A program made the position numbers and the translations under genes. This document shows, piece after piece, positions 51,107 through 57,175 of a stretch of 64,000 nucleotides of DNA. Location of the stretch: positions 3,224,001 through 3,288,000 of the forward strand of contig NZ_CP062008.1 in assembly GCF_005670685.2 (NCBI RefSeq). Direction: 5' to 3'. Origin of the DNA: Mycolicibacterium mucogenicum DSM 44124 (GTDB taxonomy: Bacteria; Actinomycetota; Actinomycetes; Mycobacteriales; Mycobacteriaceae). A model generated the notes under the pieces. It was not told where the DNA came from. It ran no database searches and saw only the letters and a program-made list of their open reading frames with translations. Numbering within the stretch: position 1 is the stretch's first letter; each line of letters opens with the position of its first letter.

Positions 51107-51769
51107 GTGATCGATTTCCGCGGGTACCTGCTGGTCGCCGCCCTGCTCGCCACGACCGCCCTGACGCTGGTCCTCGGGATCACCGATCCCGAGGCACCGC
51201 TGTCCTACCCGACTCGGTTCCTGGTCTGGAACATGTTCCTGGCCTGGATCCCGATGTGCTTTGCCGCCGCGTTCTCGGTAGTGACCCGCCGCCGCTGGCT
51301 GCTTCCGCTGGGTCTGGCCTGGCTCGCGTTCCTGCCGAATGCGCCGTACCTCGTCACCGACCTGGTGCATCTGGGTGAGCAGGACGAGCTGTGGCGCCAC
51401 GTCCTGCAGTACGGGTTCGCCGCGTGGACCGGCATCCTGCTGGGCACCGTGTCCCTGTTACTGGTGCACAAACGCATCGATCGCGAGTTCGGGCCGGTCT
51501 GGGGCTGGCTGACCGTGGTCACGTCCGTGGGGCTCTGCGCGATCGGCGTGGTGATCGGCCGCTTTCAGCGGTGGAACTCCTGGGACCTGGTCACCCGGCC
51601 CCACGCCGTCGTGGCCGCCACGTTCGAGTGGGTGCGCGCGCCGCTGTCGTACGTGCAGTCCACCGGGGTCGGGCTGGCGGTCGCCGCGTTCTTCGGGTTG
51701 GCCTACGTGACCATCTGGGCGCTGGGCGGCGTCTCCCGCCCGCAGGTCAGCGCGAATCCAGGAAGGTGA
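51107..51769 (+). CDS. DUF1361 membrane protein
   Basis: 220 residues from GTG 51107, six membrane helices. Typical DUF1361 segments are VWNMFLAWIPMCFA, LAWLAFLPNAPYLVTDLVHL and IGRFQRWNSWDLVTRP. The function is unknown. The last 23 bases overlap the end of the convergent NarL-type regulator gene. Confidence 0.88.
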   Translation: MIDFRGYLLVAALLATTALTLVLGITDPEAPLSYPTRFLVWNMFLAWIPMCFAAAFSVVTRRRWLLPLGLAWLAFLPNAPYLVTDLVHLGEQDELWRHVLQYGFAAWTGILLGTVSLLLVHKRIDREFGPVWGWLTVVTSVGLCAIGVVIGRFQRWNSWDLVTRPHAVVAATFEWVRAPLSYVQSTGVGLAVAAFFGLAYVTIWALGGVSRPQVSANPGR

Positions 51770-52409
51770 TGACGGCCAGCACCCGGCGGTGATCTTCACC
51801 GGTGTCGGGCAGGTTCAGCTTGCTGAGAATGCTGCGCACGTGCTTCTCGACGGTGCCTTCGGTCACCCAGAGCTGATGCGCGATGCCGGCGTTCGACCGG
51901 CCCTCCGCCATCAGGGCCAGCACTTCGTGCTCGCGTTCGGTCAACACCGCCAGCGGGTCCTCCCGCCGCTGCGCCGCGAAGAGTTCCTGCACGAGGGCGG
52001 GGTCGACCACCGATGCGCCACCGGTGATGCGGTGCAGCGTCTCGAGGAAATCGGTCACATCGATGACGCGGCTCTTGAGCAGGTAGCCGATGCGCTGGCC
52101 GCCGCTGAGCAGTTCCATCGCATGCTCGACGTCGACGTGCGCCGACAGGACCAGGATCGCGACGTTCGGCAGTTCGCCGCGGATCATCTTGGCGGCGTCC
52201 AGGCCCTCGGTGGTGTGCGTCGGCGGCATCCGGATATCGGTCACCACCAGGTCGGGGACGGTGTCCCGGACCAAGGCGAGCAGCTCGCCGCTGTCACCGG
52301 CCTGCCCGACGACGGTGAAGCCCGCGCCGGTCAGCAGGCTCGCCACGCCTTCCCGAAGCAGCACGTCGTCGTCGGCGACAACGACGCGCGTCCCCTCCAC
52401 TGCGTCCAC
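51747..52409 (-). CDS. NarL/LuxR-type response regulator
   Basis: 220 residues. Receiver domain with the acidic pair at 13-15 (VADDDV), phosphoacceptor Asp58 (VVTDIRMP) and Lys in YLLKSR; the linker is followed by a LuxR helix-turn-helix (LTEREHEVLALMAEGRSNAGIA, WVTEGTVEKHVRSILSKL). It is read away from the exported peptide/kinase cluster, with a 272-base gap between. It is the only full response regulator nearby and so the likely partner of the histidine kinase at 53235. Confidence 0.9.
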   Translation of the reverse strand: MDAVEGTRVVVADDDVLLREGVASLLTGAGFTVVGQAGDSGELLALVRDTVPDLVVTDIRMPPTHTTEGLDAAKMIRGELPNVAILVLSAHVDVEHAMELLSGGQRIGYLLKSRVIDVTDFLETLHRITGGASVVDPALVQELFAAQRREDPLAVLTEREHEVLALMAEGRSNAGIAHQLWVTEGTVEKHVRSILSKLNLPDTGEDHRRVLAVITFLDSR

Positions 52410-52617
52410 TTATGTCCTGTTCGTCTCGACCCATGGCCGCCGTGCCATCAGACGCCGGACGTGCCGCTCATTGCGTTCATCTTGCCTGGCCGCGGTCCCG
52501 CATCGCTCGCGGTCCTGTGAATCGGCCCCGGACCCGCTGACGGCGGGCTCGTATTGCAGCTAGCCCTACCCCCTATTTGGGCGCTGGCATCGACGACACC
52601 GACGACGCCGCGGAGCA

Positions 52618-52659
52618 TTCTGAATACCAGCCGGACACGGCCAACCGAAGAATTCAGAA
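52618..52659. repeat. Inverted repeat upstream of the first exported peptide gene
   Basis: TTCTGAAT (52618-52625) and ATTCAGAA (52652-52659), 26 bases apart, lying 23-64 bases upstream of the ATG at 52682. Arms separated by about 3 helical turns in a promoter region could be paired binding sites, for instance for the NarL-type regulator encoded on the other side. Inference only. Confidence 0.45.
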
Positions 52660-52681
52660 CACCGAAAGCTGGTAGAGGACA

Positions 52682-52915
52682 ATGCATATCACCCGCACCC
52701 GGATCATCCCGCTGGCCGCGACCGCAGCGGCGGCCCTGACCATCGTCGTCGCCCCGACCGCGGCGGCCGCCACCCTGCCCACCGGATCCACCGTCACCCA
52801 GAGCAACGGCAACGCCCAGGTCGTGGCGACCCCGGGCCCGGCAGCCCAGGAAGCCGGCCAGTTGCAGCAGCCGTTCGGCGGCGACTACGGCTTCCTGCTG
52901 TTCCACAACCACTGA
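52682..52915 (+). CDS. Small exported protein with GQLQQPF motif
   Basis: 77 residues with a GAGGAC box upstream. Signal peptide (MHITRTRIIPLAATAAAALT..., cleaved near residue 30). The mature part is about 47 residues, has no Cys, contains AGQLQQPFGG and ends GFLLFHNH. The GQLQQPF segment matches a motif shared with the two other small exported proteins at 52960 and 55352 (G-x-[LI]-[DQ]-Q-[PS]-[FL]). It is 45 bases upstream of the second and 320 bases upstream of a histidine kinase gene on the same strand. Not recognised otherwise. Confidence 0.72.
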   Translation: MHITRTRIIPLAATAAAALTIVVAPTAAAATLPTGSTVTQSNGNAQVVATPGPAAQEAGQLQQPFGGDYGFLLFHNH

Positions 52916-52959
52916 CCTGATCCCGAACCCTCTCGTCCGACCGAAAGCGAGCCCCGATC

Positions 52960-53151
52960 ATGAAGAACTCCCTGAAGCGCGCCACTGTCTGGTTGTCCAT
53001 CGCCGCGGTCGCCGGGGCACTCGTGGTGGCACCCGTCGCCGCCGCGGACACCAACCCGACCGTCCCCTCCGGCACCGACACCTACAGCCAGTACCAGAAC
53101 GGCGAACACAACACGAACGCGCCGGCAGGCCACATCGATCAGTCGTTCTGA
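52960..53151 (+). CDS. Small exported protein with GHIDQSF end
   Basis: 63 residues. Signal peptide MKNSLKRATVWLSIAAVAG..., cleaved after VAAA. The mature peptide is about 34 residues, polar, rich in Asn, Thr and Gln, without Cys, and ends in GHIDQSF. The signal peptide and the end both resemble the 45-residue protein at 55352 (MKITVKHFAPWLAAVAAIG..., ending GALDQPL). It lies directly upstream of the histidine kinase gene (83-base gap). Confidence 0.72.
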   Translation: MKNSLKRATVWLSIAAVAGALVVAPVAAADTNPTVPSGTDTYSQYQNGEHNTNAPAGHIDQSF

Positions 53152-53234
53152 CGCTTCGGCCAAGTCGCCGTCTGCGCCGTCCTGACCACGGTTAGGGTCG
53201 TGACGAGATCAGGCGACCAGGCGGGAGGCGGCCC

Positions 53235-54788
53235 ATGAACCCGGCACGATGGAATCCGGCTGTCTCCACCCCGCCGTGGTACGTCGGGCTGCTGGTCGCG
53301 GCGGGACTGATCGCCGCCGAGGTCGGAGTGGTGCAGCTGTTGCGTGATCCGCCGCCGCACAGCACCTACGCCATCGTCTTCATGTTCGGCGTGTTGGTCA
53401 TGAGCGCGGGCTGGGGCCTGGGCCTGTCACTGCTCACCACCGTCGCCAGCACCGTCGCCTATCTGTGGGTGCATCTGGACGGCGGCCCGCTCCTGCCCCT
53501 CAAGCCCATCGACATTCTCACCGTCTCGGTGTTCCTGCCCATTGCCGGGATCGCGAATGTCCTTGGCTGGCAACTGCGTAACCGCGCACGCGACGCGTAC
53601 CAGAGCTGGCAGGTCGCCACCGAGGCCACCGAGCGCGTGCGTGAACTGGCCGATCAACAGGGAGCGCTGCGACGGGTCGCGACACAGATCGCCGAAGGCA
53701 GATCACCGTCCGACGTCCTGTCCGGTGTGGCCGACGAAGTCGCCGCGGTACTGCACGTCCGCAACGCCGGGCTCGTCCGCTACGAATCCGGCGGCACCGC
53801 GACTCTTGTTGCCGCACACAACGAGCCGGGACTCACAGCAATCTCCGTCGGGACCACCTTCCCCCTCGACGGCGACGGCGTCATCGCGACGGTGCGCTCG
53901 ACCGGCCGCCCAGCGCGCATGGACACCCACGACGACGCCGATGGTTCGACGGCGGCGCTCGCCCGCGACCTCGGGCTGCGCGCGTGCGTCGGCGTGCCCA
54001 TCACGGTCGATGGAGAGCTCTGGGGCGCAATGGTTGTCGGCACCTCCGGTCCGGACGCACTACCAGACGACACCGAAGACTGTCTGAAGGACTTCGCCGA
54101 ACTCATCGCCACGGCCATCGCGAACGCGCATGCGCGCGCCGAGCTCGTGGCATCCCGCGCCCGCATCGTCACCGCCTCGGACAACGCACGGCGTGGCATC
54201 GAACGCGACCTGCACGACGGCGCCCAGCAGCGTCTGGTCACCCTGGCCCTGCAGGTTCGCACGCTCCAGATGGCTATCCCAGAGGATCCCGCCGAACTGC
54301 AATCCCGGATTGCCGGCATCGGCGACGGCCTGCGCACCGCCAGCGACGAGCTGCGCGAACTCGCGCACGGGGTCCATCCCGCGATCCTGTCGCGCGGCGG
54401 ACTACGTCCGGCACTGCGCGACCTCGGCCGGCGCGCGCCGCTGCCCGTCGAGGTCAATGTCGACGTCCCGGTAAGGCTGCCGCAGGCCGTCGAGATCGCC
54501 GCGTACTACACCGTCGCCGAAGCCCTCACGAACGCCGCCAAGCACGCGCAGGCGTCCGTGGTCACCGTGAACGTCGATACCGACGCGACATCGTTGCGCA
54601 TCGCCGTCGCCGACGACGGGGTCGGCGGTGCGAACCTCGACGCCGGCAGCGGCCTGCTCGGGCTCGAGGACCGGGTGGCCGCGCTCGGCGGCAAGCTCCG
54701 TGTGTCCAGCATCGCGGGCGCCGGCACCACACTGGTCGCCGAGATGCCGCTGGAAGAAGCCGTCGCCGTCGGCACAGATAGCAGCTAG
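53235..54788 (+). CDS. NarL-type sensor histidine kinase with GAF domain
   Basis: 517 residues from an ATG with GGGAGG upstream. Four membrane helices in residues 15-110 with short loops (DUF4118-like), a coiled-coil linker, a GAF domain (about 150-305), then HisKA_3 with the phosphoacceptor His327 (GIERDLHDGAQQRLV) and a HATPase domain (EALTNAAKHAQ, ADDGVGGAN, GSGLLGLEDRVAALGG). It follows two exported peptides and precedes a receiver-only protein; the full response regulator is on the other side of the peptides. The membrane part lacks a large sensor domain, so the GAF or the peptides may supply the signal. Confidence 0.9.
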   Translation: MNPARWNPAVSTPPWYVGLLVAAGLIAAEVGVVQLLRDPPPHSTYAIVFMFGVLVMSAGWGLGLSLLTTVASTVAYLWVHLDGGPLLPLKPIDILTVSVFLPIAGIANVLGWQLRNRARDAYQSWQVATEATERVRELADQQGALRRVATQIAEGRSPSDVLSGVADEVAAVLHVRNAGLVRYESGGTATLVAAHNEPGLTAISVGTTFPLDGDGVIATVRSTGRPARMDTHDDADGSTAALARDLGLRACVGVPITVDGELWGAMVVGTSGPDALPDDTEDCLKDFAELIATAIANAHARAELVASRARIVTASDNARRGIERDLHDGAQQRLVTLALQVRTLQMAIPEDPAELQSRIAGIGDGLRTASDELRELAHGVHPAILSRGGLRPALRDLGRRAPLPVEVNVDVPVRLPQAVEIAAYYTVAEALTNAAKHAQASVVTVNVDTDATSLRIAVADDGVGGANLDAGSGLLGLEDRVAALGGKLRVSSIAGAGTTLVAEMPLEEAVAVGTDSS

Positions 54789-54830
54789 CAGGAATGCCCC
54801 GACGGCATCACCCGCGCGACAATGCAGTAC

Positions 54831-55196
54831 ATGACGAACGCCCAATCTTTGCGATGCGTCATCGTCGACGACAACGCCGACTACCTCGCCGCGGCGACGG
54901 CACTCCTGGAACAGGGCGGCATCGACGTCGTCGGTACGGCGCGGTCGCTCTCGGACGGGATGCACACCGTCGAACGGCTCCGGCCGGACATCGCGCTGGT
55001 GGACGTGAACCTCGGCGAGGAGAGCGGATTCGACCTTGTCGCCCAACTGAACTCCCACGCGGGCACCGCCACCGTCATGGCCATCCTGACTTCGACCTTG
55101 ACCGAACTGCCCGTCGCAGAGTTGACCGACTCGCCCCCGAGGTTCCTGCCGAAACTCGATCTGTCGGGTGACGCCATCCGCGCCCTCATCGCCTGA
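54831..55196 (+). CDS. Stand-alone response-regulator receiver domain
   Basis: 121 residues from ATG 54831 (an in-frame ATG at 54822 is possible). One receiver domain only: acidic pair in IVDDNADYL, phosphoacceptor Asp58 (ALVDVNLG), Thr in ILTST and Lys108 in FLPKLDLS. No output domain. It starts 43 bases after the kinase stop. Single-domain receivers can compete for phosphate or act as phosphate sinks, and here it may tune the kinase toward the NarL-type regulator. Confidence 0.87.
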   Translation: MTNAQSLRCVIVDDNADYLAAATALLEQGGIDVVGTARSLSDGMHTVERLRPDIALVDVNLGEESGFDLVAQLNSHAGTATVMAILTSTLTELPVAELTDSPPRFLPKLDLSGDAIRALIA

Positions 55197-55220
55197 CGGC
55201 ACCAAGCTGCACCGGCCGCA

Positions 55221-55252
55221 CCGGGCCGCGCCACACAGCCGAAACGGCCCGG
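55221..55252. terminator. Weak hairpin after the receiver gene
   Basis: CCGGGCCG and CGGCCCGG, 16 bases apart, starting 24 bases after the stop. A modest stem; possibly the terminator of the cluster. Confidence 0.4.
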
Positions 55253-55351
55253 CTCCCCACCAATGTCACCCCTCGATACCGCCTTCTCATCGAAAACCCT
55301 TGGAAGGCAGAAACACTGGTCTGGTGGAGCCGGGCCGGTCGCCGGACGCGA

Positions 55352-55489
55352 TCAGAGAGGCTGATCCAGCGCGCCGCCAGACTGGTTGGTCTCGTCGCGG
55401 TCTGCGCCGGCGACAGGTGCCAGGGTTAACGCTCCGATGGCGGCGACAGCGGCCAGCCAGGGCGCGAAGTGCTTGACGGTGATCTTCAT
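55352..55489 (-). CDS. 45-residue exported peptide with GALDQPL end
   Basis: A short gene on the minus strand: ATG at 55489, stop at 55352, with GAGGACCG a few bases upstream of the ATG. The product starts with the signal peptide MKITVKHFAPWLAAVAAIG..., cleaved after VAGA, and leaves a mature peptide of only about 16 residues, starting DRDETN and ending GALDQPL. Both the signal peptide and the end match the exported protein at 52960. It is convergent with the kinase/receiver genes, 155 bases away. Confidence 0.68.
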   Translation of the reverse strand: MKITVKHFAPWLAAVAAIGALTLAPVAGADRDETNQSGGALDQPL

Positions 55490-55698
55490 GGTCGGTCCTC
55501 GCTTTCACGTCGACAGCCGGAGTTCCGGAGTGCTTCCATCGTCGGTCCTGACCTGCACGTTTGTCGCTCCGGCGAGCACCCGTTCCCGCGTTGCAGCTAG
55601 CTGGAAGATGCTCCGATTCCTGACGTCGTCCACGTGGGAGTAGCGGGTGTCGATGAAAATCCTTTGAGTCCAGTGGAGCCGTGCTGTCACGATTGCTC

Positions 55699-56275: not shown

Positions 56276-57007
56276 TCAGCGGTGTAGTCGTCGGACGTCG
56301 AGGGCGGTCTCGATCACCTCAGTGCCACGTTGATCGATGAAATACGCTCCGGCGGTGCCATTTTCGGCGACAGCTTCCACGAGCTGCGTGCCGCGGTACA
56401 CCAGGCCTGCACCGTCATCGGTGGCAAACGCGGATGGGAGAATTCCGGTACCGACTAGTTCATGCAGCAGCGGCCGACGCTGCGCTTCTGAGTCGTAGTG
56501 CACACCGTTGGCGTAAGGCAGGAATCCCAGTCCGTTGGTGAGAGGCTGCAGTTGCGGGCCAAACGAGTCGGTGGTGCCGCCAGCGTGCCAGCAGATCGAG
56601 CCGGCAGAGATTCCGGTCAGTACTACCCCGGCCTGCCACGCTGCACGTAGGGCTTCATCCACACCATGCAACCGCCACATCGCCAGGAGCCCCGCAACGC
56701 TTCCGCCGAACACCCACACCACATCCTGCGACAGCAGGTGCGCGGTGACGTCGTCGTGTGTGGGCATCGGAAATAGCGCCAGGTGTGACGGGATGAAGCC
56801 GCGGATCTGCGCCGCTTCCGTGAGGTGGTGCAGTAATGCCTTGTCGTCGCCCATCGCCGTCGCCAGCAGGCAGAAGCGCGGGGGCCGCCCGGTGACACCG
56901 GAGAGTTCGACCGCGTAGTCGGTCAGGGCGGTGAACTCGAACCGCGTGCGCTGACCTGTTCCTATTCCGCCGCTGGTCGCGAGAATGGTGGGTGCATCTG
57001 CTGGCAT
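56276..57007 (-). CDS. Peptidase E-like (S51 family) protein
   Basis: 243 residues from ATG 57007. The S51 nucleophile elbow is TGISAGSICW (Ser), with GGSVAGLLAMW before it and the HYDSEAQRRPLLHEL and FATDDGAGLVYRG segments after. Family members cleave N-terminal Asp peptides or are cyanophycinase-like. It has no signal peptide. A longer reading from 57106 would include an unconvincing Cys-rich N-terminus. Confidence 0.82.
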   Translation of the reverse strand: MPADAPTILATSGGIGTGQRTRFEFTALTDYAVELSGVTGRPPRFCLLATAMGDDKALLHHLTEAAQIRGFIPSHLALFPMPTHDDVTAHLLSQDVVWVFGGSVAGLLAMWRLHGVDEALRAAWQAGVVLTGISAGSICWHAGGTTDSFGPQLQPLTNGLGFLPYANGVHYDSEAQRRPLLHELVGTGILPSAFATDDGAGLVYRGTQLVEAVAENGTAGAYFIDQRGTEVIETALDVRRLHR

Positions 57008-57175
57008 AGCCTCGACGGTAGGTGCACCGTCCGCTGGCGGACAATCGAGTTTTGCTGAACATGCCCATCCCACCATCAGGCACACCGCCTCGCTGTCAGT
57101 GCCCAATGCGAGTGGTGATCGTCGTGCAGCGCAACGAAGACGTCTCGCGCACGCTTGAGCTCCTACCGCAGGCGA

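Follow-up and report, generated by a model that had tools for sequence, protein, structure and literature searches.

Organisation of the locus

Three short genes for exported proteins lie around a two-component system in the window (the whole 64-kb stretch of DNA that was analysed, which belongs to a 6.1-Mb single-contig genome), and the question they raise is whether such mini-proteins are signals for the adjoining kinase or part of what the kinase controls. The sequence comparisons reported here point to the second answer: with a probability of about 0.72, the three genes, called P1, P2 and P3, are controlled by the adjoining two-component system as its output, and oxalate-decarboxylase-like cupins belong to the same regulon. 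The features considered were the following.

51747..52409, minus strand: NarL/LuxR-type response regulator with receiver and GerE domains (Pfam Response_reg and GerE; PDB relatives VraR, which is the best, NarL and DevR)
52553..52570, no strand: degenerate copy of the box (ATTGCAGCTAGCCCTACC), centred 120 bp upstream of the P1 start, matrix score 4.9
52578..52597, plus strand: second promoter element before P1 (TGGGCGCTGGCATCGACGAC), 14/20 consensus positions, 16 bp after the box centre
52682..52915, plus strand: P1, 77-aa exported protein, family B of the PGN superfamily (frame, profile match, dN/dS)
52960..53151, plus strand: P2, 63-aa exported protein, family A (frame, homologues, profile match, dN/dS)
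53235..54788, plus strand: sensor histidine kinase with DUF4118, GAF, HisKA_3 and HATPase_c domains (Pfam)
54778..54795, no strand: box where the kinase and receiver genes meet (ATAGCAGCTAGCAGGAAT), highest-scoring match of the 64 kb (19.4)
54822..55196, plus strand: receiver-only protein (Pfam Response_reg only, plus a sub-threshold DUF7382 match)
55352..55489, minus strand: P3, 45-aa exported protein, family A (frame, profile match, dN/dS)
55563..55582, minus strand: second promoter element before P3 (CGGGTGCTCGCCGGAGCGAC), 12/20 consensus positions only
55590..55607, no strand: box before P3 (GTTGCAGCTAGCTGGAAG), ranking second in the 64 kb and centred 109 bp upstream of the P3 start

The order is thus the NarL-type regulator on the minus strand, then P1, P2, the kinase and the receiver-only protein on the plus strand, and P3 on the minus strand. 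A preliminary description of this DNA had placed frames of 77 and 63 residues (plus strand) before the kinase and one of 45 residues (minus strand) past the receiver gene; these coordinates were confirmed, as were by Pfam the kinase, the NarL-type regulator and the receiver-only gene that it had named. The HisKA_3 and HATPase_c domains of the kinase and the receiver and GerE domains of the regulator all exceeded the Pfam gathering scores, and a hydropathy scan of the kinase placed three or four membrane segments, with short loops, in its first 110 residues. In two close relatives (L033 and L034) the kinases aligned to residues 1-131 and 300-516 only, the GAF domain (53628-54131 in the window) being absent.

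The kinase of the window is 91% identical to that of Mycolicibacterium llatzerense, and homologues of P2 were found in Mycolicibacterium species, M. mucogenicum among them; these close relatives are referred to here as the mucogenicum group. Synteny of P1, P2, kinase, receiver gene and regulator was found in all four close named genomes, and P3 was present in one of the four and in one further genome (L109). The neighbouring genes recognised by Pfam in the window were an asparagine synthase, DUF1361, GNAT, an S51 peptidase (56276-57106) and EamA, with no obvious peptide-processing or ABC export gene among the neighbours scanned.

Mini-protein genes and their families

Judging from their substitution patterns, P1, P2 and P3 are real genes. 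The dN/dS values against relatives were about 0.14-0.36 for P1 and about 0.12-0.45 for P2; that of P3, about 0.24-0.46, comes from two relatives only, with few changes, and excludes the row of L112 labelled P3, which is a match to P2. P2 and P3 each retrieved the other when the window genome was searched, and both matched the profile of a family that we call A, among whose seeds both also are. On these matches the two are paralogues within one mycobacterial family, so that the likeness between them seen in the preliminary description is real homology. Two more family-A paralogues were found in the same genome, at 2145178 and 1113655. The C-terminus D-x-[PS]-[FYL] was present in 59 of the 62 members of family A, and P2 and P3 have both the signal peptide and the C-terminus that define it.

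The family of P1 is a different one, B. Profile comparison relates it (probability 98.4%, E 9e-15) to C, a larger set that has a PGN-like element. Families A, B and C were defined in this analysis, and B and C together are called the PGN superfamily; P1 carries a signal peptide and GN-x-[QE] in its mature part and matches the profile, as PGN proteins do. Genes of A and B adjoin each other in three further genomes (G145, G112 and G154). None of the three mini-proteins matched Pfam or NCBIfam, one Gly-rich PGN member matched GRP below the GRP cut-off, PDB profile searches returned weak matches only (E 0.16 to 0.89), and the AlphaFold model of P1 had a mean pLDDT of 49.6. A single family-A member retrieved 374 database relatives, and the 120 of them that were listed had no Pfam domain and no name other than hypothetical or uncharacterized protein.

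Some arrangements of these genes were seen in passing. Several divergent mini-protein members co-occur in some genomes; different A and PGN genes are clustered at L095, L099 and L118, where some ends are very rich in Gly and His and might bind metal; and at L024, L025 and L030 family-A genes lacking the box described below precede a possible catalase relative, which was recognised by eye.

The preliminary description had read one motif in all three proteins, and this was not borne out. When the mature parts of P1's family were compared by profile with those of family A, the probability was only 0.7%, that is, no relation, and the best heptamer score of P1 against P2 and P3 was reached by 231 of 1000 shuffles of mature P1. 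The regular expression proposed earlier, which was fitted after the fact, was rare in shuffles (23/200000), and 289 of 20000 shuffles equalled the match of P1 to the two C-terminal heptamers, a comparison also fitted after the fact. A motif uniting the three proteins was rejected, the likeness of P1 to P2 and P3 being no better than chance; by these comparisons, what had been noted is the C-terminal motif of family A mixed with an internal stretch of family B (GQLQQPF of P1).

The kinase, regulator and receiver module in the genus

A match to the kinase (E<=1e-40) was found in 100 of 248 genomes of the genus, paralogous kinases being counted in. We fetched 80 kinase regions outside the mucogenicum group, which were among the higher-scoring of more than 150 listed places. 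Their usual order was the regulator, a convergent receiver-only gene and a divergent kinase, and the receiver gene was divergent from the kinase and less than 500 bp away from it in 45 of the 80 regions (45 genomes). In the mucogenicum group the order is altered, the kinase following P1 and P2 and preceding the receiver gene. By this conservation of gene content, the kinase, the NarL-type regulator and the receiver-only protein are a module that recurs in the genus, and their families and conserved neighbourhood suggest that phosphate would be transferred from the kinase to the regulator.

PGN genes were found at most 1.1 kb from the kinase in 15 of the 80 kinase regions, as against none anywhere in 40 control regions. 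The control regions were a non-random choice, set at round offsets of coordinate in genomes that have the kinase, and four of the 15 positive kinase regions (L114, L118, L140 and L175) had contributed to the seven seeds of the C profile. All 18 PGN genes of the kinase regions sit within this distance, with flanks reaching up to 5 kb. The position of mini-protein genes beside the kinase, on which the preliminary description had relied, holds for P1 and P2 in the four close named genomes and for PGN genes in those 15 regions, but many mini-protein genes lie away from the kinase.

A palindromic box and a second promoter element

A 16-bp palindrome, TTNCNGNTANCNG[G/T]AA, was found in 43 of the 45 divergent receiver-kinase intergenic regions, and a matrix was built from these 43 sites only (30 unique 18-mers), the remaining 35 of the 80 regions being unused. 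Its two best matches in the 64 kb were the kinase/receiver-gene junction, where a box was also present in eight related loci scanned, and then the site before P3, which is the sole exact TTNCNGYTARCNGNAA in the window genome. The degenerate box before P1 ranked tenth in the 64 kb and was recognisable in five upstream regions, four named relatives among them, with one change in two of the five.

Reduction by upstream similarity left 121 of 154 family genes and 244 of 288 control genes. None of the family genes had served for the matrix, which placed a site 85-130 bp upstream of the start codon in 31 of the 121 non-redundant regions (A 16/47, B 3/25, C 12/49), mostly at 90-110 bp, and no site at this distance in the other 90; 300 permuted palindromic matrices gave a mean of 0.27 sites and a maximum of 8. 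Control genes of the same loci had a site in 10 of 244 cases at 85-130 bp and in 37 of 244 anywhere in 400 bp; since, of 37 site rows with a score of at least 10, 8 belong to neighbouring family genes, 21 fall in the kinase regions, 6 in loci of the window genome chosen by their boxes and 2 in L106, the same-locus genes are not a clean control. A cleaner comparison is that of the fetched regions: at a score of at least 12, there were 93 boxes, training sites included, in the 861 kb of the 80 kinase regions versus 3 in the 458 kb of the 40 control regions. The one-mismatch box was not enriched across the window genome (13 sites versus 21 for the reversed control), and the family-A paralogue at 1113655 had no good box. 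Family genes had the box in 31 of 105 cases in kinase-positive genomes versus 1 of 16 in kinase-negative ones, a difference in the right direction but weak.

When 54 upstream regions were aligned by a box of score at least 2, a second element, TGGGTGTCAGCNGTGACGAC, was found to adjoin the box. It was matched at 14 or more of its 20 positions in 62 of the 121 family genes versus 25 of the 244 control genes, and shuffled seeds reached a mean of 1.74 and a maximum of 9; as the consensus was taken from the counted regions, the 62 measures its strength and is not independent proof. Its place was regular: in 35 of 42 cases it followed the centre of a box scoring at least 4 by 14-16 bp, and its distance to the start codon was mostly 71-85 bp. 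A match at 14 or more of the 20 positions is by itself not rare within the window, the one-mismatch pattern occurred at 203 places in the window genome, and 4 of the 12 exact matches there sit at boxes, the pattern having been written from those copies. In some promoters of family genes (L052, L074, L131, L223, L235 and L243) the box and the second element stood about 22 bp further apart, and several such gaps seem to contain further box-like sequence.

Distribution among genomes

Exact boxes numbered 118 in the 100 kinase-positive genomes, 72 of which had at least one, versus 40 in the 148 kinase-negative genomes, 35 of which had at least one; the reversed pattern occurred 31 and 47 times, respectively. 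Presence of the box was associated with that of the kinase (Fisher p 3e-14, the kinship of the genomes being ignored). The module's own intergenic sites account for 37 of the 118 boxes, and some more are expected among the remaining 81, in genomes outside the 45. Family A (E<=2e-10) was found in 29 genomes, 28 of them kinase-positive, and family B (E<=1e-20) in 13, all kinase-positive; at the weaker E<=2e-15, family B was found in 24 genomes, five without a kinase match. All these co-occurrence counts are of raw genomes, with shared ancestry not accounted for. Only 28 of the 100 kinase-bearing genomes had a strong family-A or P1-like member.

Another palindrome, TTTCGGCTAGCCGAAA, recurred in several genomes, at L266, L273 and other places, twice before a possible threonine dehydratase gene (recognised by eye). 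It probably has nothing to do with the box and makes the number of boxes in kinase-negative genomes look too high.

Cupin genes as further candidate targets

At G000:C1:2145036-2145106 in the window genome, the family-A paralogue at 2145178 is divergent from a cupin gene (Pfam Cupin_1). A one-mismatch box lies between the two genes and a second element faces each of them; the cupin protein has a twin-arginine-like start, as read by eye. The same genome has a bicupin gene at G000:C1:3037440-3038628, whose product is a relative of oxalate decarboxylase, below the NCBIfam cut-off. A box of score at least 10 was found upstream of the bicupin gene in 10 of 30 loci (L347-L376, the window genome included), all 10 of them kinase-positive, as were 26 of the 30 loci overall. 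The bicupin gene lay 5 to 1381 bp from the kinase gene in 15 genomes, the window genome not among them, these cupin-kinase pairs having been chosen by eye. The oxalate decarboxylase of Bacillus subtilis is induced at low pH (PMC11433825), and by this analogy acid or organic-acid stress may be offered as a first guess at the signal of the kinase.

Proposed control and alternative explanations

The genes and their families, the module, the box, the second element, the spacing and the distribution described above are present in the DNA, and we propose the following scheme to account for them. The kinase, like the regulator of a known kind, would respond to some condition within or close to the membrane by phosphorylating the NarL-type regulator, as its family suggests. 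The regulator would bind TTNCNGNTANCNG[G/T]AA, to judge from the box in the system's own divergent promoter and from the distribution of boxes, and, with the adjoining TGGGTGTCAGCNGTGACGAC element, it would activate the genes of family A (P2 and P3) and of the PGN superfamily (P1), together with the system's own genes and those of the oxalate-decarboxylase-like cupins. The mini-proteins would be exported and may act in the envelope or outside. P1, P2 and the kinase gene of the mucogenicum group probably form one operon, with positive autoregulation, and the receiver-only protein probably buffers the flow of phosphate. Because the A and PGN genes share the box with the kinase system, they look like what it controls, not like what sets it off. 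Of the peptide-linked module previously suggested, the functional link is thus retained, on the strength of the box, the second element, adjacency and co-occurrence, but its direction is not, as the mini-protein genes look like targets.

The mini-proteins, or peptides from their conserved ends, might nevertheless signal to the kinase or modulate it by feedback, in the manner of pheromones or of CpxP, while being made under the control of the same system. Their small size and export, their place beside the kinase in the mucogenicum group and in 15 of the 80 other kinase regions, the conserved C-terminus of family A (59/62) and the several divergent members of some genomes are all consistent with this, but 72 of the 100 kinase-bearing genomes have no strong A or P1-like member, the kinase loops are predicted to be short, the neighbours examined hold no obvious peptide-processing or ABC export gene, and the mini-protein genes are often far from any kinase. 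We consider such a signalling function unlikely, no result favouring a ligand or feedback role over that of a target, while recognising that the status of a target is still compatible with feedback. It is also doubtful that, in a circuit widespread among mycobacteria, the DUF4118 kinase, the NarL regulator and a receiver-only brake drive fast-changing exported mini-proteins whose conserved ends act back on the kinase or carry signals to nearby cells, which would amount to peptide communication in mycobacteria.

The box could also be the site of another regulator or of a sigma factor governing the two-component and mini-protein genes alike, in which case the NarL regulator would be only one more target. 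Palindromes that resemble the box, such as TTTCGGCTAGCCGAAA, occur in kinase-negative genomes as well, so that some of the pattern has another origin; this explanation nevertheless seems quite improbable to us, because box counts track the presence of the kinase, a box lies within the module's own divergent promoter, and a 16-bp dyad fits a dimer of the NarL type. Finally, small secreted proteins are common in mycobacteria, and three of their genes could lie by a kinase with no functional link. P1 is not homologous to P2 and P3, the three-way motif is within chance and P3 is absent from three of the four close named genomes, as a fortuitous neighbourhood would have it, but the recurrent adjacency, the co-occurrence and the shared promoter elements make mere coincidence very hard to credit.

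Many small exported mycobacterial proteins are without a family name. Control of the mini-protein and cupin genes by the adjoining system, if true, would give two such families one regulator and a defined DNA site, and the oxalate-decarboxylase-like cupins would hint at the signal. It would also provide a predicted regulon for a conserved two-component module; neither this module nor the box nor the A and PGN families were found described in a literature search whose coverage lay mostly outside subscription journals.

Comparison with known systems

Agr and Com, the pheromone systems of Gram-positive bacteria, resemble the present one in that a small exported product adjoins the kinase in some genomes. 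They differ from it in that the peptide gene is not constantly beside the kinase here (PGN genes near 15 of 80 kinases, strong A or P1-like members in 28 of 100 kinase-bearing genomes). Among the Pfam-scanned neighbours of the window kinase, which include the S51 peptidase, no obvious processing or export gene was seen. CpxAR of enterobacteria, with CpxP and Spy, has small exported proteins as the regulated output of a two-component system, as is proposed here for the mini-proteins, but its kinase, regulator and protein families are, as far as we are aware, unrelated to those described here.

LiaRS and VraSR are envelope-stress two-component systems of Firmicutes. Like the system of the window, they have a HisKA_3 kinase with little outside the membrane and a NarL-type regulator, VraR being the best PDB relative of ours, and their output genes encode envelope proteins, a role that the mini-proteins may share. 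In contrast, DUF4118 and GAF domains are present in the window kinase, which reaches 61.3 bits against Strep_LiaS (NCBIfam), whose cut-off is 450; no LiaF-like gene was found among the Pfam-scanned neighbouring proteins; and the window system adds a receiver-only protein and would have other targets. DosRS (DevRS) also combines a GAF-containing HisKA_3 kinase with a NarL-type regulator, DevR being among the PDB relatives of ours, and a palindromic box precedes its targets. The two boxes differ in sequence and length, and the system described here is distinguished by a kinase with a DUF4118 membrane part and by putative targets that are exported mini-proteins and cupins.
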